From an uncultured Ectothiorhodospiraceae bacterium (GTDB taxonomy: Bacteria > Pseudomonadota > Gammaproteobacteria > UBA9214), in contig CAMYIO010000019.1 in the NCBI GenBank assembly GCA_947258515.1, positions 1 through 55,176 of the forward strand: a stretch of 55,176 nt of DNA, read 5' to 3'. A program made the position numbers and the translations under genes. The notes under the pieces were generated by a model. It was not told the DNA's origin and ran no database searches. It saw only the letters and a list, made by a program, of their open reading frames with translations. How positions within the stretch are numbered: the first letter of the stretch is position 1; every line of letters begins with the position of its first letter. Positions 36,868 through 45,791 of the stretch are shown piece after piece.

Positions 36868-37395
36868 TTAAACGTTTGATTTGCATCCCTCAGGATTCGA
36901 TCCATCAACAAGAACATGTCCGAATACCGGAGGGCTTTCATCACCGTAATATTGGATATAGTTCTCCCAGTCATTCAGCTTGGCCCGGTCACGTGCATTA
37001 CCCCGGAGAGCAAGTCTGCGCCTGCGGATCTCATGTGCACACTGTACATAGTGAACTTCTATTGAACTGCCAAGGAGCTGGTAAAGTGTCGACGGCCAGG
37101 CCGGATCCTTAATCTCCTTTGTGAAGGGACCGACAATGACCGCGTCCAGGAAAGGCAGGTTTTCCCTGGCTATATCGAAGAGTGTTTCGTAAACAGGCTC
37201 GCGGAAGCTTCGCTTGAAGTACCCGGAGTCGCGATCATCCTGGCTACGCCCGGATTGAACAAGTGCAATTCGAACCAGCCGCTCAGTCACCGTGTCAATG
37301 TCCAGCAGGGCCGCATGCCTGGCGGCAGCTAGTTGTCTGGCATACGTTGATTTACCTGAACCGGGACTGCCGCAAACTATATAGGAGGTGTGCAT
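36868..37395 (-). CDS. P-loop kinase/ATPase-like protein of unknown substrate
   Basis: 175-aa nucleotide-binding protein. The Walker A motif is CGSPGSGKSTYARQLA at the N-terminus, followed by ALLDIDTVTERL, where the Asp is probably part of the base-recognition or catalytic site, and VIVGPFTKEI as the likely Walker B strand. The C-terminal EIRRRRLALRGNARDRAKLNDWENY resembles the arginine-rich lid of AAA_33/shikimate-kinase-like kinases. The ATG at 37395 is chosen because it places the P-loop at residue 8; the longer frame to 37518 has no homologous look. It is monocistronic. The substrate is unknown. Confidence 0.7.
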   Translation of the reverse strand: MHTSYIVCGSPGSGKSTYARQLAAARHAALLDIDTVTERLVRIALVQSGRSQDDRDSGYFKRSFREPVYETLFDIARENLPFLDAVIVGPFTKEIKDPAWPSTLYQLLGSSIEVHYVQCAHEIRRRRLALRGNARDRAKLNDWENYIQYYGDESPPVFGHVLVDGSNPEGCKSNV

Positions 37396-37880
37396 TCTGT
37401 CTTTCAAAACCTGTACAGGCACTATCAGAAAAAGAGTGTGGGATGATATATCGTTTAGACTGTTCGCAATACAGTAATCACCCCTTGGATCCTGACGTGC
37501 TCTTGAAGTTATTGGCACACGCTAGAGTTGACTGAGCCTGGTGGTTTTTAAGGAGAACACCGCTGCAGTGCGTCGTTACAAACGACTCGTATACGAAATT
37601 ATTGAGTATTTCGTGTCCTGGACGTGCGCTACCTAAAATGGCCCATAGGCCATAACACCATGATCTCTATGAGGGCTGTTTGGCCTGGAGCCGCAAAGCA
37701 AACCACGGCAGAACCTGCCATCAGCTGAGCGCGGGAACAGCGGTTTGAAACAACGCTGTATAGGCGTTTTTACCTCCGGCTTGCATGCAGGTGTTGGTAT
37801 CTCTCACCGTTTACCGTAAAATTCCCCAAATTGAAGGTGGACCACAACATATTGTGATAATTAACCATCAGGGGCACTAT
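37396..37880. other. Intergenic region with a possible weak third copy of the tRNA-flank repeat
   Basis: No gene is recognised. The 25-base stretch 37651-37675 (CATAACACCATGATCTCTAT...) resembles the repeat found at 54,170 and 55,135, with about six mismatches. The remainder carries the leader of the 165-aa hypothetical gene. Confidence 0.3.
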
Positions 37881-38388: not shown

Positions 38389-38430
38389 CAGGTACCTTGT
38401 TCATTTACATAGTGTCGAACAGGGTACCTG
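38389..38430. terminator. Hairpin between convergent genes, possible bidirectional terminator
   Basis: CAGGTACC-TT-GTTC (38389-38402) pairs with GAAC-AG-GGTACCTG (38417-38430), a 12-bp stem with a 2-nt internal loop and a 14-nt loop. No long T-tract follows on either strand, so it may attenuate rather than terminate fully. It lies between the stops of the 165-aa gene and the last gene of the ParA operon. Confidence 0.45.
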
Positions 38431-38457
38431 AGGCACGCGCGCGTGCAACACAGAGGG

Positions 38458-38976
38458 CTACAGCTGACTGAAGTGCTGCTCTTCTTCCGGGTTGAGTACC
38501 GATTCGACGATCGTGGGCTGACGCTGCAGGGGGATGGGTTCTGCAGCAGTCGTTTCTTCAGCGACCGGGTTAATCACCATGCCAAACTCGCCATTTACGG
38601 ATAGCACCTGGATGTGCCGCCAACTGACAGGGCATGCTCTGCTAAAGAGTGTCAGCCCGGGAGGTGCCGCAGGTGCAAGTACCAGTAACTCTGCGGGCGG
38701 CTGGTAATCCTGCAGGAATAGCGCCGCCATTTCACTGCCCAGCTGATCCACCCTGGCGAGACCGGTGAGCAATGCCCGCTGCGGATCGACCGCATCGAAA
38801 CTGAGCAACACTGACCCGTTATGCGTATCCGATGTCGCAAGGCAGCAACCATCTATTTGCGGCATATTCTCGACGAGCCTGGCCCCTTCCCCAAGCAATG
38901 CGCCGAGGTTATCGACTACCAGGCTTCGCAGGTCAGATGGTTCGATTTCGGTGACAGCATGAATTTGCAATGTCAT
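38458..38976 (-). CDS. Hypothetical protein, fourth gene of the MerR-ParA operon
   Basis: 172 aa, no confident family. Residues 10-110 read as alternating helix/strand (IEPSDLRSLVVDNLGALL, IDGCCLATSDTHNGSVLLSFDAVDPQRALLTGLARVDQLGSEMAALF). This has the outline of a RecB/NucS-like PD-(D/E)xK fold, in which a strand with E-x-K precedes a long helix, but the E-x-K position reads S-F-D, so nuclease activity would be absent. The C-terminal third is Pro/Glu-rich and probably disordered. The start overlaps the previous gene by 4 bp (ATGA), so translation is coupled. Confidence 0.6.
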   Translation of the reverse strand: MTLQIHAVTEIEPSDLRSLVVDNLGALLGEGARLVENMPQIDGCCLATSDTHNGSVLLSFDAVDPQRALLTGLARVDQLGSEMAALFLQDYQPPAELLVLAPAAPPGLTLFSRACPVSWRHIQVLSVNGEFGMVINPVAEETTAAEPIPLQRQPTIVESVLNPEEEQHFSQL

Positions 38977-39590
38977 GTGTGATCAACCTCCAGTTGGTTA
39001 TGTATAGAATGAGTTCCCCAAAGCCGGTGAACCGCTTCGGCCAGACGTGCCAGATCCGCACTGAAATTCGGCCCGGGCGCTGACAACTGTCCCAGTTCAT
39101 GAAGACGGATGCCAAGAAACCGCCTGGCGCCCGATGCCAGTCGTTCCTGACAGAGGCGCGCGAACTCCGCGTCGCGGGCACCACTGAATAGCACCCCGAA
39201 TCGACGTGACGGGGTAGCAGAAAGCATTTTGATACCGCTATACGCAAGCCGGACACCCTCGAGATTCGCTGTCGCAAAGACCAGAATGAAACCCTGGTTG
39301 GCATTCGTAGCTTCATGCTCCAGTGGAATGGTTTCCAGGTGCCAGTCGGGGTGCTCCGTTATCGCGGATGTTTGTATATTAAGCTGACGGGTCAAGGCAT
39401 CCACAAGGTAGTGCGGTTGCAATGCATTGGAGGGATGCCCTGCCGCGACCGCCATGTGGACTGGCAGGGTATGGGTGACCCCTGGCTTCCCGGTGTTGGA
39501 ATCTGCCGGGCGTTCATCGATAAAGTGATGCTGGATACTGGCCAGACGCTCGGTATGCAACTGGGCTGGCCGCCAGGCTGGACTGTGCAT
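38973..39590 (-). CDS. MinD/FlhG-like protein lacking the P-loop, third gene of the ParA operon
   Basis: 205 aa. The N-terminal 80 residues match nothing known. From about residue 95 on, GFILVFATANLEGVRLAYSGIKML, RRFGVLFSGARDAEFARLCQERLASGARRFLGIRLHELGQL follows the second half of MinD/FlhG ATPases (the strand-helix after the switch II region, the NRV strand, the pilus-like helix and the yLG strand). No Walker A motif is present, so it cannot be an ATPase by itself. It starts 14 bp after the ParA-CBM gene with GGAGGAG at good distance. It may form a complex with the ParA protein. Confidence 0.6.
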   Translation of the reverse strand: MHSPAWRPAQLHTERLASIQHHFIDERPADSNTGKPGVTHTLPVHMAVAAGHPSNALQPHYLVDALTRQLNIQTSAITEHPDWHLETIPLEHEATNANQGFILVFATANLEGVRLAYSGIKMLSATPSRRFGVLFSGARDAEFARLCQERLASGARRFLGIRLHELGQLSAPGPNFSADLARLAEAVHRLWGTHSIHNQLEVDHT

Positions 39591-39603
39591 GGCTTCTCCT
39601 CCG

Positions 39604-40698
39604 TCAAACGTTTATCAGCGAGTTGTACTCCCCCATGTTGTTGGGTGTTGCCTCCGGATTGGCCGGGTCCTGTTGCCATACACCGTCGATAACCAGACGA
39701 TATTCATAGCCACCAGGGCTCACACGAAGTTTTTTCTGCACTGACCCATCCCGAATTTCTGTTTCCACGTCCTTGTCGTCAGGAATCCAGTTATTGAATT
39801 CTCCGGCAATCTGCACCCGCTTGAACTTCGTGTTATCGAAGCGGAACACCACTTCTTTCAGATTGTGGGTTTCATCAACTTTTCTGGCGGCAGGCGGGTT
39901 ATCGGGTTGCATCTCGATGGCTTGTGCCTTTTCGCTACGCACGCGCTGCAGCATGCTACCAAGCAGTTCCTCCGCCAGTTCCCGGAAATCTCCAGTTACC
40001 GGAGCACGTGGCGCATGATCGGTTAACGGGGCCCCGTGACAGGCTGCTTCACGCACGCGCACAGAATTACGAATCCGGGTAGCACACAGATCGGTCGGCA
40101 GTGATTCCAGCATCTCGAACATATTGCGAGCGATGCGAGTGCGGACATCGAACATGTTGGCAAGCAGGGTAACGGATGGCTGAATATCATACTGGCTGGC
40201 AAGCAAGTGGATGGTCTCACGCAAGCGCTCGATACCATCCAGTGAATAGAGGCTGGGCTCAACCGGTATCACGACCCGGTCCGCGGCCCGTAATGCATTC
40301 ACCGACAGCAGTCCCAGCGCCGGCGGGCAATCGAGGACAACACAGTCATAACGCCCCTCGAGCGTCGCCAGATGCTGCGCCAGCTGACGATCCCTGTCCG
40401 GCCGCTCGGCAAGCAGATGTTCGGCTGCGGCGAGTGAGATATTACCCGGGATGAGATCTACACCCCGGGTGACACCCGACTGGATGACTTCATCCAGTCG
40501 GTACTCGCCCTTCAGGAGCTCGTAGAGACCCGCCAGTTCGGCGCCCGCCACCCCGAGTCCCAGTGAGGCATGCCCCTGGGGATCCATGTCGATGAGTAAA
40601 ACCCGGGCATTCTGTTGCCCCAGCGTCGCGGAAAGGTTGATGGCCGTGGTGGTTTTTCCACAGCCTCCCTTCTGGTTGACAATCGCAATGATGTGCAT
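39604..40698 (-). CDS. ParA/MinD-type ATPase fused to a C-terminal glycogen-binding (CBM48/AMPK-beta-like) domain
   Basis: 364 aa. The N-terminal 250 residues are a ParA ATPase: deviant Walker A NQKGGCGKTTTAINL, switch I DMDPQGHAS, Walker B CVVLDCPPALGLLS. The C-terminal 85 residues form a carbohydrate-binding early-set domain (VVFRFDNTKFKRVQIAGEFNNWIPD, SPGGYEYRLVIDGVWQQDP, NNMGEYNSLINV) with the Trp and Asn positions used by AMPK-beta to bind alpha-glucan. The ATG at 40698 is chosen because GGAGGAAG lies at ideal distance; an ATG five codons earlier overlaps that site. It is flanked by a MerR regulator upstream and two partner genes downstream. Confidence 0.88.
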   Translation of the reverse strand: MHIIAIVNQKGGCGKTTTAINLSATLGQQNARVLLIDMDPQGHASLGLGVAGAELAGLYELLKGEYRLDEVIQSGVTRGVDLIPGNISLAAAEHLLAERPDRDRQLAQHLATLEGRYDCVVLDCPPALGLLSVNALRAADRVVIPVEPSLYSLDGIERLRETIHLLASQYDIQPSVTLLANMFDVRTRIARNMFEMLESLPTDLCATRIRNSVRVREAACHGAPLTDHAPRAPVTGDFRELAEELLGSMLQRVRSEKAQAIEMQPDNPPAARKVDETHNLKEVVFRFDNTKFKRVQIAGEFNNWIPDDKDVETEIRDGSVQKKLRVSPGGYEYRLVIDGVWQQDPANPEATPNNMGEYNSLINV

Positions 40699-40800
40699 GT
40701 CTGCTTCCTCCATTGTGGTCTGTTACAAACCACTCTTTAACGGGTATCCGGGCACTGGCGGCCCCCACCGGTATCGGTTAACCCTGATTATTAGCAACGG

Positions 40801-41277
40801 CTATCCCTGGCTTAATCGATTTATTTCTTCCAAATCTGGTTCGTCAGCGTCCCTGAAAAGTTTCCCCTGATGTGGTACTTCACGGTCACTTAACAGCAGC
40901 CGTGCCTCGAGTTCGAGATCCGCCACATGGAGTATCCACTCCTGTCCTGTCAGTGCATCAAAGGCAGCGTCACTACGCAAAACCAGCACTACATCACCGG
41001 TGGCCACCAGTGAAAGTTCCTGAAGCGGGGTATCAATATTGGGGAGAAATCGACTTAACGACTGCAAGCATTGGCGGATGCGTTGTACGGAAACCCCGGC
41101 ATCGATTAGCCGGCTAGCCGTTTTCAATGAAACGAGGTCGACAAAGCTGTAACGGGCATGTCCGCCAGGTGTTTGCTGCGCCGGGGAGAGTAGACCGGTC
41201 TTGCGCCAGTATCCCAGCTGTCGCGCGCTTAGTCCGGTGATACTGCAGACCTGGCGTGTAGAAAACCCCTGATCCAA
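40801..41277 (-). CDS. MerR-family transcriptional regulator
   Basis: 158 aa. The N-terminal winged-helix HTH (FSTRQVCSITGLSARQLGYWRKTGLLSPAQ, HARYSFVDLVSLKTASRLIDAGVSVQRI) is typical MerR. The C-terminal half (VATGDVVLVLRSDAAFDALTGQEWILHVADLEL) is not a known metal- or drug-sensing domain and lacks Cys ligands. The start is a TTG at 41277, the only candidate in frame, with a run of G residues eight bases upstream. A dyad GTTGA-GG-TCAAC lies just upstream (41292-41303). The gene precedes the ParA-CBM gene by 102 bp on the same strand, so it probably controls that operon. Confidence 0.85.
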   Translation of the reverse strand: MDQGFSTRQVCSITGLSARQLGYWRKTGLLSPAQQTPGGHARYSFVDLVSLKTASRLIDAGVSVQRIRQCLQSLSRFLPNIDTPLQELSLVATGDVVLVLRSDAAFDALTGQEWILHVADLELEARLLLSDREVPHQGKLFRDADEPDLEEINRLSQG

Positions 41278-41564
41278 TAGAAACCCCCCTTGTTGAGGTC
41301 AACGGATTGTGGGTGATTATCCCTGAGCAACCGCTTTTGTCAAGAAATACAACAATAAATACTGATTTTGTCGGCTTTTTATGTTTGTGGGACGGCATGA
41401 TCTGCGATCTCGCGTAGCGACTACTTACCGCCGGGACTCGCCGCGGTGACAGTGGAGGATCCTGGTAAGTCATGGAATTACAGGTGGTGGTCCAATTGTG
41501 CCCATTGCCGCATTTAAAACGTCCTGTGATAAGGTGATAAATATAAGGACAAGGGATACTTGCC
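41278..41564. promoter_or_regulatory. Divergent promoter region between the MerR and Rap1a genes, with a dyad
   Basis: The 12-bp palindrome GTTGAGGTCAAC at 41292-41303 sits directly before the TTG start of the MerR gene. On the minus strand TTGACC overlaps it and could be a -35 element. The region also carries the Rap1a leader with AAGGGA eight bases before its ATG. Assignment of the operator to the MerR protein is inference. Confidence 0.35.
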
Positions 41565-41924
41565 ATGAAACGAACAACAATAATCGGCGCAGCGGTACTA
41601 CTTGGCATGGTCATGTGCAGCTCAGTTGCTGCAGCGATGGAGAATGTAAGTGGTGCGTTGCTGAAAAAGATCTGTACTTCTTATATTGACAGGCCAGCAA
41701 GTACTTCTGACGGCATGTGTATCGGCTATGTGGTAGGCGTAATGAGTGTTGTGGTGTATACGAATTATTTTTGTCTCCCCGGTAAATCTACACACTCGCA
41801 AGCGACCCTTGTCGTAAAGAAATACTTGTCCGGGCATCCCGAGAAGCTGCATTTAGATGCTGACGGGTTAGTGCTTGAGGCACTTATAGAAGCATTTCCC
41901 TGTAGTAGCTCACCCACGGACTAA
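41565..41924 (+). CDS. Rap1a/Tai-like immunity-family protein
   Basis: 119-aa exported protein. The signal peptide (residues 1-24, ending VAAAMEN) is followed by the Rap1a domain: the hallmark CIGYVVGVMSVV helix, a disulfide-type cysteine in NYFCLPGKSTHSQATLVVKKYLSGHPEKLHLDADGLVLEALIEAFPC, and the C-terminal Cys. Tai/Rap1a proteins neutralise type VI secretion amidases in the periplasm. No amidase effector or T6SS gene is in the window, so it is an orphan immunity protein or has another periplasmic role. It is divergent from the MerR gene. Confidence 0.82.
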   Translation: MKRTTIIGAAVLLGMVMCSSVAAAMENVSGALLKKICTSYIDRPASTSDGMCIGYVVGVMSVVVYTNYFCLPGKSTHSQATLVVKKYLSGHPEKLHLDADGLVLEALIEAFPCSSSPTD

Positions 41925-42008: not shown

Positions 42009-45000
42009 TTATCTGCCGGTACCTTCTGTGGCGCCGGTCGAGCCGGGCCCGGAAGGCTCGTCATAGGTGGCACGCGATTTTCTGCAGGTATACAGGCCGT
42101 AAAATATCGGTACGGACACTGCCAGCAGGAACCAGGGCAGATAGACCTGCTCCCGGGCAAATAAAGAGTGAATGGTCACGGTGATAAACAGCGCGCCGGC
42201 GATGCCCACAAAGACTGCATCACGGCAGAGAAAAACAGTCGTCCTTCTGGCGTAACGCATGGGGAAGAACTGGCTGTCCCATGTCTTCAGCACCGCGCCG
42301 AGGAGAAGAATGGTCAAAATACCGGAGGTGAGCAGGATAATGGCAATCAGGGTCCCGACCGTATTGTATGGAACCAGTGGCGCCGCCAGCAACGGCAGGA
42401 AGCCAACCGCCACCACCAGCATGTTACGCAGAATGGCACGCACCGGCTCCGCGAACATGATTTCCATTGCCCGCTGCCAGGAACCTGTCTGGCTGACCAC
42501 GTGACGGATACGCACCAGGAAGTGAATGGTAAAGTCCACTGCGAGCCCGATCGACAGTGATGACAGCACCGCCACCGGCATATCGTAGGGTTTTCCTACC
42601 AGGCCAAGCACGCCATAGATAACCAGCATGGTGCAGGTCAGTGGCACCATGGCCAACATACCCCACAAGGTGGAGCGCAGCAGAAACACCATTAATACAA
42701 GGACGGCGAGATAGCCGCTGGCAATGGAATCCATCATCCCGGACACCATCTTTTCCTGCCAGACAACATTGATATAGGTAAGGCCAAACCAGCCCGGTGA
42801 CAGGTCAACGGGCGGCGGGTTGTCATGCATGTAGGACTCGACTGCCTCGACCACCGCGGACATGTCGACATTATCCCCGCTGTTGAGCAACACCCAGATC
42901 GACGCCTTGCGGTAATCGGGTGTGACGAAACGCCACAGATCCTGTGGCCGGTGTCCGCTCTGTGTGGTCAGATAGGTCTGTGCGACGCCCTGGGCGGTTT
43001 CGGGGATTCGGTAGTCCTCACTGCGCCCGCCCAGCAGTTCCCGGTAAACGGTTTTTGAATAATCGGCAACTGAAATGGATTTCCCCACGATTCCGGTAGC
43101 AGCGAGCACCTCCTGAAGCTCGCTGATGTATGCAAGGACTTGCGGATCCTTGAAGTGCTGGCGTCCTTGCAGTTCGGCCTCAACGGCGAACTGCAGCTCT
43201 TCCCAGAACTCAATCTCGTCGCCCGTACCGGCGTCGATTGCATCTTCCACCTGCGTTTCCAGTGCACGCAGCAACTCATCCGGTGATGGCGAGCCCCGCA
43301 GAAGCCCGCGGGCCTGGTCCATGAGATTCCCGGCAAGGGACCGGTATTGCGGTGAGCTGCCGGAAAATTCATCCAGCCTGTCCTGCAAGCGATCCAGTAT
43401 TGCCTGCGGCTCATCCTCCATGTCCGTGGCCTCCAGTGCGAGATAGGCCATGTACGTGCCGGCAAAGTGCTCGTTCAGGACCTCATCAGCGACGCGAATC
43501 GGGTGCTCGTCCGCGAACCAGCGCACCGGGTTGTCATTCACGACAATGCGCTGCACTCCGAACAGGCACAGCAGCACCATGACCAGGGTGACGGCGATAA
43601 TGCCCCGGGAACGGCGCAGGGTGAACAGTCGCGTGCGCTGCAGCCAGCCACCGCTGCCGTCGGCAGAACCGCTGTTGCCACGCGCGCCGGCAACGGACAG
43701 TGATGCAAACTTTTCCTTCGGTATCAGCATCACATAGGCCGGAATAAAACTGATGGAAAGCAGAAATGCCAGTACCACACCCAGACTCACAAAAATACCG
43801 AACACCTGCACCGGCGGGATGGGAACCAGCGCCAGTGAGGCGAAGCCGACGGCTGTGGTTAACGAGGTATACAGCATGGGCGTGAACAGCTCGCGCATGA
43901 CGTGATCCATGGTCAGACGACGGTCCTTGATGCGGGGGTAGTAATCGAAAAACTCCGACAGGATATGTATAGAGTCCAGCACGGCGATCGGCATGACGAA
44001 GATCGGAATCATCGAACTCATGATATGCAGGGTGTTGCCCGTGATGATGAGCAAGGCCATGGTACAAAGTACCGACACCATGGCAACCAGCATCGATGAA
44101 ATCACCAGTGTCAGGTTACGAAAGAAATAATACATCAGCAGGAATATCACCAGCATTGCGGCAGGTGCCGAGATCGCCATCTGAATAAACATCTCGACCC
44201 CGAAGGAATCCTCGGCCACCGGCAGGCCGGTGATAAAGTACTGCTCGTCGCCTTCCTGTTCCGCGATGAATCCCTTCAATGCCTGGTAGACCCTGAAGCT
44301 GATGTCTTTTGAGGTCAGCGGCAGGTAGAGGCTGACGGCCCTGCCGTCTTCGGAGATCAGGGTCCCGTCCATGGTGGGATAACGTTTTAGTTTCCTGTGT
44401 ATCTCCAGGGCCTCGGCATCACTGGCCGGAGGCTCGGGCATCAGCCATGAGAAGCGCACCGCGCCCACGCCTGCCTGTTCAACAACATCCATGCTCGACG
44501 GTGACATCATGTCCGCCGCCAGTACGCCGCGCACCTCACCGGGGCGCTCCTCGTCCTCCCAGGTGAGGGTCCGGGCAAACTCGCTCAGCGCATGGATCTT
44601 GCCCAGTGAGCCGGCGTTGAAGACGCCATTTGGATGCGTGTCATTGACCACGCCGACGACCATGATGTCGTGCAGGGTCATCTCCTCCTTCATGCGGTTG
44701 TGAAATACCCGTGTCGACTCGTCGGCAGACAGCATGTTTTCCGGGTCGGTATCAACGACCAGGGGATGAAGCGAGGAGAACCGGTCGGGAAACAGGGTCG
44801 GCAACGCCGCCGCAAGGATCAACACGAGGGTGATCATGCCCATTATCCAGTTGACCTTCGCGGGCCGGTTCATGGCCAGGGTCGGGATGGTGAGATAGGC
44901 TTCCCTGCCATAGAAAAATGGCAGGACTGTATTCAGCCAGCCACTTTCCGGAAGATTGAACGAGATACCCGGATAACGGCGCAACAACCGGCGAAAGCGC

Positions 45001-45701
45001 TTCTTCTCCAGAACCAGCACTTTTGCGGCATCTTCAAAAACGACTGAATACTCGTGACTCAAGCGCGCCAGCAGTCCGCGGCTACCGCTATGTGACCCTG
45101 GACGCATATAGCCGGAGGTGGTTTCATTGCCTTCCGGGCCGGTGGAAAATGTTCGGGCATTACCCTTGAGGATCAGATACAGTGCATCCTCCGCGTCACC
45201 TTCACTAAGCAGTGTCTCACCGGCCTGGTACTCTTTCAGCGTCAGTTCGTCCCGGATTTTGAGCAGCGCATCATCATCCAGCTTGTGAAACGCAGGTATA
45301 CCCTGCAACAGCCGCAAGGTATGGAGCCTGTCAAGCAATGCCGAGAAGGCAGGATTGCACTCCAGCAGGTCAAAAAAGTCGGCCTTGCTCAGCTCGTAAA
45401 TCTGTGTATCAGTGATCGCCTTGATGGTGGCAATCCGCGGAATATCCTGAAGCAGGCCGACTTCGCCAAACAACTCGCCGGGGCCGAGGACCTTCAGCAC
45501 CTTTTCCTGGCGGTCACTGGACAATCTCGAGGCGGTCAGTTCACCCGACCTGATGAAATAAAATGTTTCTGCAAGGTCACCTTCACTCATGACCGTATCA
45601 CCGGCGCGAAACTGCTTTAGCGTGAAGCGGTCCCTGAATGTCTCGTATTGCTCCCGGGTTAACTCGTATTTTTCAAAAATATTTTCGAGTTCCATTTCCA
45701 T
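42009..45701 (-). CDS. RND/MMPL transporter with two N-terminal cyclic-nucleotide-binding domains
   Basis: 1230 aa. CNB1 spans about residues 1-125 (FRAGDTVMSEGDLAETFYFIRSGEL, GPGELFGEVGLLQDIPRIATI), and CNB2 about 130-250 (YQAGETLLSEGDAEDALYLILKGNA), the latter degenerate after RPGSHSGSRG. An RND superfamily exporter of COG1033 type follows, with helix 1 at about 285-305, two large periplasmic loops and two SSD-like bundles (VISSMLVAMVSVLCTMALLIITG, FVMPIAVLDSIHILSEFF, VLSSLSIGLAVDFTIHFLVRI). The ATG at 45701 is preferred over ATGs at 45704 and 45695 because AAGGAG lies six bases upstream. It is the third gene after the LolA-like and barrel genes, so it probably moves lipid-like cargo. Confidence 0.88.
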   Translation of the reverse strand: MEMELENIFEKYELTREQYETFRDRFTLKQFRAGDTVMSEGDLAETFYFIRSGELTASRLSSDRQEKVLKVLGPGELFGEVGLLQDIPRIATIKAITDTQIYELSKADFFDLLECNPAFSALLDRLHTLRLLQGIPAFHKLDDDALLKIRDELTLKEYQAGETLLSEGDAEDALYLILKGNARTFSTGPEGNETTSGYMRPGSHSGSRGLLARLSHEYSVVFEDAAKVLVLEKKRFRRLLRRYPGISFNLPESGWLNTVLPFFYGREAYLTIPTLAMNRPAKVNWIMGMITLVLILAAALPTLFPDRFSSLHPLVVDTDPENMLSADESTRVFHNRMKEEMTLHDIMVVGVVNDTHPNGVFNAGSLGKIHALSEFARTLTWEDEERPGEVRGVLAADMMSPSSMDVVEQAGVGAVRFSWLMPEPPASDAEALEIHRKLKRYPTMDGTLISEDGRAVSLYLPLTSKDISFRVYQALKGFIAEQEGDEQYFITGLPVAEDSFGVEMFIQMAISAPAAMLVIFLLMYYFFRNLTLVISSMLVAMVSVLCTMALLIITGNTLHIMSSMIPIFVMPIAVLDSIHILSEFFDYYPRIKDRRLTMDHVMRELFTPMLYTSLTTAVGFASLALVPIPPVQVFGIFVSLGVVLAFLLSISFIPAYVMLIPKEKFASLSVAGARGNSGSADGSGGWLQRTRLFTLRRSRGIIAVTLVMVLLCLFGVQRIVVNDNPVRWFADEHPIRVADEVLNEHFAGTYMAYLALEATDMEDEPQAILDRLQDRLDEFSGSSPQYRSLAGNLMDQARGLLRGSPSPDELLRALETQVEDAIDAGTGDEIEFWEELQFAVEAELQGRQHFKDPQVLAYISELQEVLAATGIVGKSISVADYSKTVYRELLGGRSEDYRIPETAQGVAQTYLTTQSGHRPQDLWRFVTPDYRKASIWVLLNSGDNVDMSAVVEAVESYMHDNPPPVDLSPGWFGLTYINVVWQEKMVSGMMDSIASGYLAVLVLMVFLLRSTLWGMLAMVPLTCTMLVIYGVLGLVGKPYDMPVAVLSSLSIGLAVDFTIHFLVRIRHVVSQTGSWQRAMEIMFAEPVRAILRNMLVVAVGFLPLLAAPLVPYNTVGTLIAIILLTSGILTILLLGAVLKTWDSQFFPMRYARRTTVFLCRDAVFVGIAGALFITVTIHSLFAREQVYLPWFLLAVSVPIFYGLYTCRKSRATYDEPSGPGSTGATEGTGR

Positions 45702-45791
45702 CATCGACTCCTTGTGCAATACCGGTACATGCAGCTTGTATGGATTTTAATGGTGCACCCTGTGCGTGAATGTATTCACTACCGATTAACT

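Follow-up and report, generated by a model that had tools for sequence, protein, structure and literature searches.

A ParA-type ATPase fused to a glycogen-binding domain in a conserved four-gene operon: a candidate positioning system with possible alpha-glucan cargo

What would a ParA-type ATPase position if it carried a glycogen-binding domain? This question is raised by a four-gene set on the minus strand of contig CAMYIO010000019.1 (assembly GCA_947258515.1) from an uncultured Ectothiorhodospiraceae bacterium, of which the stretch of 55,176 nucleotides analyzed here is called the window. The set (positions 38458–41277) encodes a MerR-family regulator (MerR), a ParA-type ATPase fused to an AMPK-beta-type carbohydrate-binding module (CBM; the fusion is designated ParA-CBM), and two further proteins, designated P2 and P3. 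We propose, with a probability slightly below one in two (about 0.48), that the operon is a self-contained ParA-type positioning system in which P2 would act together with P3 as a ParB-like activator, and that its cargo in glycogen-storing hosts would be alpha-glucan.

The ParA-CBM operon and its proteins

An initial annotation, made from the letters of the window, had described four genes on one strand, the last three separated by 13 bp and a 4-bp overlap, and had suggested that they form a conserved operon around a ParA ATPase with a C-terminal AMPK-beta-like CBM retaining its Trp/Asn ligand positions; all of these points held up. The open reading frames (ORFs) lie where they had been placed, in the order MerR, ParA-CBM, P2, and P3, with a gap of 87 bp between MerR and ParA-CBM, a gap of 13 bp between ParA-CBM and P2, and an overlap of 4 bp between P2 and P3. 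The same operon occurs in another genome of the genus (G020), with protein identities of 75–86%, and the ratios of nonsynonymous to synonymous substitution rates (dN/dS) in this comparison (MerR, 0.11; ParA-CBM, 0.17; P2, 0.42; P3, 0.31) indicate purifying selection on all four genes. The four-gene order is also kept in divergent Gammaproteobacteria, Nitrospirota, and Myxococcota. Taken together, the selection and the recurring order argue that the genes are real and that their layout is not due to chance.

When a single ParA-CBM protein was used as the query against genome contigs, no match was obtained; an alignment of the CBMs succeeded. The scan of named genomes with this alignment yielded at least 80 loci, and the locus counts derived from it represent a partial sample. 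Pooling with the loci of a class-wide search gave 68 listed loci anchored on ParA-CBM (among them L020, a CBM alone), which span Gammaproteobacteria, Nitrospirota, Myxococcota, Planctomycetota, Omnitrophota, Rokubacteria, and Auribacterota. The class-wide search, with P2 as the query, detected seven further gammaproteobacterial genomes (families f23, f81, f100, and f123), six of which carry the complete operon in unchanged order, the seventh (G102) lacking the ParA domain only. Searched with iterated profiles built from a small sequence set, 37 of the 68 listed loci showed a recognizable P2 and 36 a recognizable P3. MerR is found alongside the other operon genes in Gammaproteobacteria, Nitrospirota, Myxococcota, and a single bacterium without a classification, and no recognizable MerR was found at the listed loci of Planctomycetota, Omnitrophota, Rokubacteria, and Auribacterota. 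In a tree of the ParA domains, in which several deep forks were weak, the members clustered largely by phylum and the loci without P2 were scattered among those with it, a pattern that fits an old association with P2 followed by repeated losses or moves. Neither P2 nor the CBM had a match among 72,556 plasmid records, and an origin from a plasmid or mobile element was rejected.

The ATPase part of the window protein matched PF13614 (E-value 1.8e-50) above the curated Pfam cut-off, and the best match of the ParA-CBM family profile in the PDB was a ParA family protein (8ray, E-value 4e-66), with Thermus Soj (1wcv) at 2.5e-54. The deviant Walker A motif (KGGxGK[ST]; KGGCGKTT in the window) is intact in 64 of the 68 listed proteins; three of the four exceptions are cut off by the edge of a contig, and the remaining one, L020, no longer has a ParA domain. 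Judged from these matches, ParA-CBM is a Soj-like ATPase, which presumably binds the nucleoid.

The C-terminal domain is, by its profile score, a bona fide PF16561 domain (E-value 2.2e-8; 34.6 bits against a cut-off of 26.8), and it matched AMPK-beta2 in the PDB (4y0g, E-value 3.8e-10). Its residues W309, R339, W346, and N364 correspond to W100, K126, W133, and N150 of AMPK-beta, which bind glycogen (PMC4032982, PMC2642990), with a conservative replacement of K126 by R. In 69 sequences, W133 is conserved in 69 and the N150 position holds N or D in 68; W100 (69/69) and K126, as R or K (69/69), had been built into the CBM search patterns, so that only the conservation of W133 and N150 is unbiased. 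The CBMs of Myxococcota and Rokubacteria also retain the glucan residues, except for D in place of N150 in the two Rokubacteria, and the position of AMPK T148 is mostly occupied by E or G in the family. The retained residues suggest that the CBM binds alpha-glucan.

P2 had no match in Pfam or NCBIfam. Its family profile matched FleN (5j1j, E-value 2.6e-15) and FlhG (4rz2, E-value 7.8e-14) over the whole length in the PDB, and the top Foldseek match of the AlphaFold2 model of the window protein (mean predicted local distance difference test score [pLDDT], 76) was FlhG (E-value 4.2e-6); on these grounds, P2 is classed as an FlhG/FleN-like protein. A motif check found Walker A in none of the 37 P2 proteins, and P2 is thus a pseudo-ATPase by sequence. 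The possibility that P2 is a degenerate copy of the neighboring ParA was discarded, because the profile comparison with the ParA-CBM alignment was weak whereas the match to FleN/FlhG was strong. The body of a ParB, with its ParB/Srx CTPase and helix-turn-helix (HTH) parts, is absent from the partners: neither P2 nor P3 had a ParB-type Pfam match, and their folds are FlhG-like and PDDEXK, respectively.

The most conserved element of P2 across the phyla is an N-terminal peptide, RLASIQHHFIDE in the window, which reads RLxxISHHFLSE in most Gammaproteobacteria and RDLxDVLHYFLPE in Myxococcota. The divergent peptides KLGKGLEDISYLFLSS (P2 of the omnitrophote L085) and PLGRGLEDVSHLFLS (P3 of L071) resemble RGLGRGLDALLG of the genome's own ParB, the N-terminus of which begins MAAKKRGLGRGLDALLG. 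In Rokubacteria, the peptide PLGRGLEDVSHLFLS is located on P3, and no separate P2 was found there. In the set of loci covered by this check, no ORF product other than ParB and members of the ParA-CBM module, namely those from L051, L071, and L085, had LG[KR]GL[DE] among its first 60 residues; the window peptide is a degenerate form. ParB binds and activates ParA through a peptide of hydrophobic residues around a single Arg or Lys (PMC12462528), and in partners of ParA/MinD ATPases the N-terminus is generally the part in use (PMC10241942). Because of this resemblance and this general use of N-termini, we infer that ParA-CBM has P2 as its activator and, in Rokubacteria, P3. Loci that have lost ParA provide a natural test of the link between ParA and the peptide, but its outcome is ambiguous, since the peptide is degraded in L026 (GRPARAHGQIPDG) and largely kept in L020. 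Separately, a gene just upstream of ParA-CBM in L067, L072, L073, L087, and L054 encodes a protein of approximately 190 aa that has an N-terminus (IYEHLANIYLDAS) like the P2 peptide and, besides a putative transmembrane helix, another domain; where P2 is missing, this protein may serve as a membrane partner instead.

P3 likewise had no match in Pfam or NCBIfam. Its AlphaFold2 model (pLDDT 87) matched EndoMS/NucS in Foldseek (5gkj/2vld, E-value 1.6e-4, probability 1.00) with a template modeling score of approximately 0.48, a likeness at the level of the fold only, and the family profile touched UPF0102, a PDDEXK protein (3fov, E-value 7.6e-4). The catalytic [DE]xK after the ID strand is present in no member of the family, and the catalytic D is also gone in Gammaproteobacteria. 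A functional nuclease was rejected on this basis, and P3 is, as judged from model and motif, a catalytically dead protein with the EndoMS/NucS fold. In many Phycisphaerae, P2 and P3 form a single ORF (L053, L064, L075, L076, L079, L081, L082, L086, L089, L102, and L104), and such fusions are a usual sign of a physical partnership between the two proteins.

Possible cargo and alternative explanations

In the proposed positioning system, the Soj-like ParA-CBM would carry its own cargo-recognition part, the glucan-binding CBM, at its C-terminus. The N-terminal peptide of P2 would take the role of the ParB N-terminus, docking on ParA-CBM and stimulating ATP hydrolysis; P3 would be the obligate partner of P2, and MerR, encoded by the first gene, probably controls the operon. 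In glycogen-storing lineages, this one included, the cargo would most likely be alpha-glucan granules or enzymes located on them, and cycles in which ParA binds nucleoid and glucan and is released by P2 would spread the granules along the nucleoid and share them between daughter cells. The fuller version of this idea, a machine for partitioning storage polysaccharide so that both daughters inherit granules, is put forward tentatively, and we hold it to be clearly less probable than the general proposal; it would be the first ParA system in which the ATPase itself holds on to alpha-glucan and in which a pseudo-FlhG/pseudo-EndoMS pair, standing in for ParB, resets it.

The initial annotation had tentatively connected the operon with glycogen and had named the presence of glycogen synthesis in all carriers as a check. 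The connection is supported in two lineages, Gammaproteobacteria and Omnitrophota. GlgA (GT5, strong match) and GlgB were each found in 15 of 15 operon-bearing Gammaproteobacteria, a set that includes L031 (ParA-CBM without recognizable P2, P3, or MerR) and the ParA-less L026 and G102. GlgA occurs in 149 of 274 genomes of the class (54%), and within this sample it was found in 8/8 genomes with the operon against 141/266 others (Fisher p = 0.007, uncorrected for relatedness, five families). In the omnitrophote L085, ParA-CBM, P2, and P3 are followed by a YfiH-type gene, a gene for a DUF4912 protein, and a GH57 gene, the product of which we take, by resemblance, to be a branching enzyme; in four other Omnitrophota and one planctomycete, a GH57 gene lies two genes upstream of ParA-CBM. 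Seven Planctomycetota have a GT3 glycogen synthase. The DUF4912 protein of L085 carries the same ParA-type N-terminal peptide as the module, with the GH57 gene directly after it (L085:9867-13177). DUF4912 genes elsewhere mostly also adjoin GH57 and lack the peptide, which was found only in the protein of the L085 operon (one of nine genomes) and was therefore dismissed as a general DUF4912 trait.

The expectation that every carrier makes glycogen failed, and it does so among several observations that weigh against the proposed positioning system with alpha-glucan cargo. The Myxococcota G299, G304, and G308, with genomes of 4.5–6.6 Mb, have the complete operon and none of GT5, GT3, GT35, GlgB, GH13, and GH57, and G319 has only a weak GT5-like match. 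No dedicated search was made for GlgE in G299, G304, and G308, but GlgE is a GH13 enzyme and GH13 is absent. Although completeness values are not given, the absence is hard to blame on assembly gaps because it is shared by related genomes. A universal dependence on glycogen was therefore rejected. In the order of the window's own host, the ParA-CBM fusion is present in only 2 of 23 genomes and GlgA in 16 of 23; together with the Myxococcota, this indicates that the system is accessory and not universally tied to glycogen. GlgA is, moreover, so common that its co-occurrence with the operon is only suggestive. Approximately 31 of the 68 listed ParA-CBM loci, mostly in Planctomycetota, have no recognizable adjacent P2, and the window P2 peptide lacks the LGxGL core, so that its likeness to ParB runs only via intermediates. 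Finally, G102, a complete genome, and L026 keep MerR, the CBM, P2, and P3 and have lost the ParA domain, which indicates that part of the function needs no ParA and that CBM, P2, and P3 can outlast it. In G102, a short reading frame (MNIMTIAK...YRRLAEAL) resembles the scar of a ParA deletion. Free-standing CBMs kept with P2, P3, and MerR were also noted at L020:6360-6920, with a short ParA-like scar, and at L026:6444-7255.

These ParA-less operons favor the main competing explanation, a glucan-sensing regulatory module in which the AMPK-beta-like CBM would report the carbohydrate store, P2 and P3 would relay the signal in the manner of FleN to FleQ, and MerR-controlled transcription would be the output, with movement of cargo secondary or absent. 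A MerR with a conserved, family-specific C-terminal region accompanies the operon in three phyla, and the closest structural relatives of P2, FleN and FlhG, include an antiactivator that binds a transcription factor (PMC10723142). However, ParA keeps its ATPase motifs in the other carriers, the peptide of P2 is similar to one that activates ParA, and the planctomycete, omnitrophote, rokubacterial, and auribacterotal loci show no recognizable MerR. We consider this explanation unlikely.

Somewhat less likely again is a ParA positioning system with a cargo other than alpha-glucan, in which the CBM would bind another saccharide or a protein and the gammaproteobacterial link with glycogen would be incidental. 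It would accommodate the complete myxococcal operons without any tested alpha-glucan enzyme, the immediate neighbors of the operon in Gammaproteobacteria and Phycisphaerae, which are not glycogen genes, and the replacement of AMPK T148. A protein-binding role would nevertheless not predict the near-invariance of the AMPK glucan residues, which extends to Myxococcota, and the linkage with GH57 and DUF4912 in Omnitrophota also speaks for a glucan. A function in DNA partition or repair, with ParA and P2-P3 acting on DNA through P3 and the CBM serving as a dimerization or decoration domain, would suit the mismatch-endonuclease fold of P3 and the proximity of the ATPase to chromosome-segregation ParA, but it is highly improbable given that P3 lacks the nuclease motif, that the host genome has a separate Soj-ParB at the usual place, that the plasmid records contain neither P2 nor the CBM, and that no part is better conserved than the CBM, which persists where ParA has been lost.

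Other features of the window

The features of the locus and the genes beside it are listed in Table 1. The putative promoter lies approximately 38 bp upstream of MerR; about two such sites are expected by chance in as much sequence, and the assignment is only suggestive. The inverted repeat, located between P3 and a converging plus-strand gene, is a possible bidirectional terminator. In an alignment of nine operons, the C-terminal region of MerR was family-specific (TGDVVLV...FDALTGQEW).

Table 1. Coordinates of predicted features in the window
Feature	Position	Strand	Basis
MerR-family regulator, 158 aa, TTG start	40801..41277	-	PF13411, E-value 2.8e-15
ParA-CBM fusion, 369 aa, Walker A KGGCGKTT intact	39604..40713	-	PF13614 and PF16561
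Soj/ParA-type ATPase domain, residues 6-254	39952..40698	-	Pfam and PDB profile matches
AMPK-beta-type glycogen-binding domain, residues 288-369	39607..39852	-	PF16561 (AMPK1_CBM), alignments, PDB match
P2, 205 aa, FlhG/FleN-like, without Walker A	38973..39590	-	Family profile against PDB, AlphaFold2/Foldseek
N-terminal peptide of P2, RLASIQHHFIDE, a proposed ParA-binding and ParA-activating element	39513..39548	-	Most conserved P2 element across phyla
P3, 172 aa, EndoMS/NucS (PDDEXK) fold without catalytic [DE]xK	38458..38976	-	AlphaFold2/Foldseek, family profile, motif check
Motif at the P3 C-terminus, VLNPEEEQHFSQL (LSxEExxFxxL in the family), preceded by a variable linker	38461..38499	-	Family motif
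Sigma-70-like promoter TTGACA-16-GATAAT, 5' of the MerR gene (putative)	41316..41343	-	11/12 consensus matches
Near-perfect inverted repeat CAGGTACCTTGTTC ... GAACAGGGTACCTG	38389..38431		Read from the sequence; terminator scan gave no score
Protein of 1236 aa, two N-terminal cyclic-nucleotide-binding domains and an MMPL/Patched-like transporter	42009-45719	-	
Small, apparently secreted protein with a Rap1a immunity domain	41565-41924	+	PF18602, E-value 4e-18
Small AAA_33 kinase-like protein	36868-37518	-	E-value 5.9e-14; borderline Zeta-toxin match

Among the neighbors, the 1236-aa protein has an unusual architecture. The Rap1a-domain gene is divergent from the MerR gene, and a different gene takes its place in G020. 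At the myxococcal loci L034, L035, L036, L040, and L046, a gene for a sigma factor of the extracytoplasmic function type follows P3, often with an alpha/beta-hydrolase-like gene after it.

Relation to known systems and biological meaning

The ParA-CBM locus shares with ParABS (Soj-ParB) the Soj-type ATPase, the partner gene just downstream, and, in divergent members, a partner peptide of the LG[KR]GL type; it differs in its partner, which is an FlhG-like pseudo-ATPase where ParABS has a ParB CTPase/HTH protein, in the CBM on its ParA, and in that the host has a separate ParAB. McdAB of carboxysomes and other cargo-positioning ParA/MinD systems (PMC10241942) similarly combine a ParA-type ATPase with a small operon partner, and a non-DNA cargo is proposed here too, whereas the cargo-recognition domain is here on the ATPase itself and the two partners are degenerate enzymes. 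By analogy, the locus would work like ParABS and McdAB and belong to neither, P2 and P3 being unlike ParB and McdB. P2 has the fold of the flagellar number regulators FlhG/FleN and a full-length profile match to them, but it lacks Walker A, its short N-terminal peptide is of another kind, and the context is not flagellar. The CBM shares PF16561 and the W100, K126, W133, and N150 positions with AMPK beta and the glucan-binding domains of plant SnRK1 and SEX4, but is fused to a bacterial ParA, with no kinase and no beta C-terminal domain. P3 shares the PDDEXK fold of EndoMS/NucS, without [DE]xK or the EndoMS N-terminal domain and in another context.

No earlier description of a ParA-CBM system, and none of a bacterial system that spaces glycogen, was found in the literature searched. 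Aggregates of glycogen at old poles can, in csrA mutants of E. coli, exclude the chromosome and end division (PMC4836754). A ParA with a glucan-binding domain would be a direct candidate for glycogen spacing and makes this question testable. The analysis also provides folds and a working hypothesis for P2 and P3, two protein families spanning several phyla that carry no Pfam or NCBIfam annotation. If the proposal is correct, the operon would represent a new ParA layout, in which the cargo domain resides on the ATPase and pseudo-enzymes serve as the activator.

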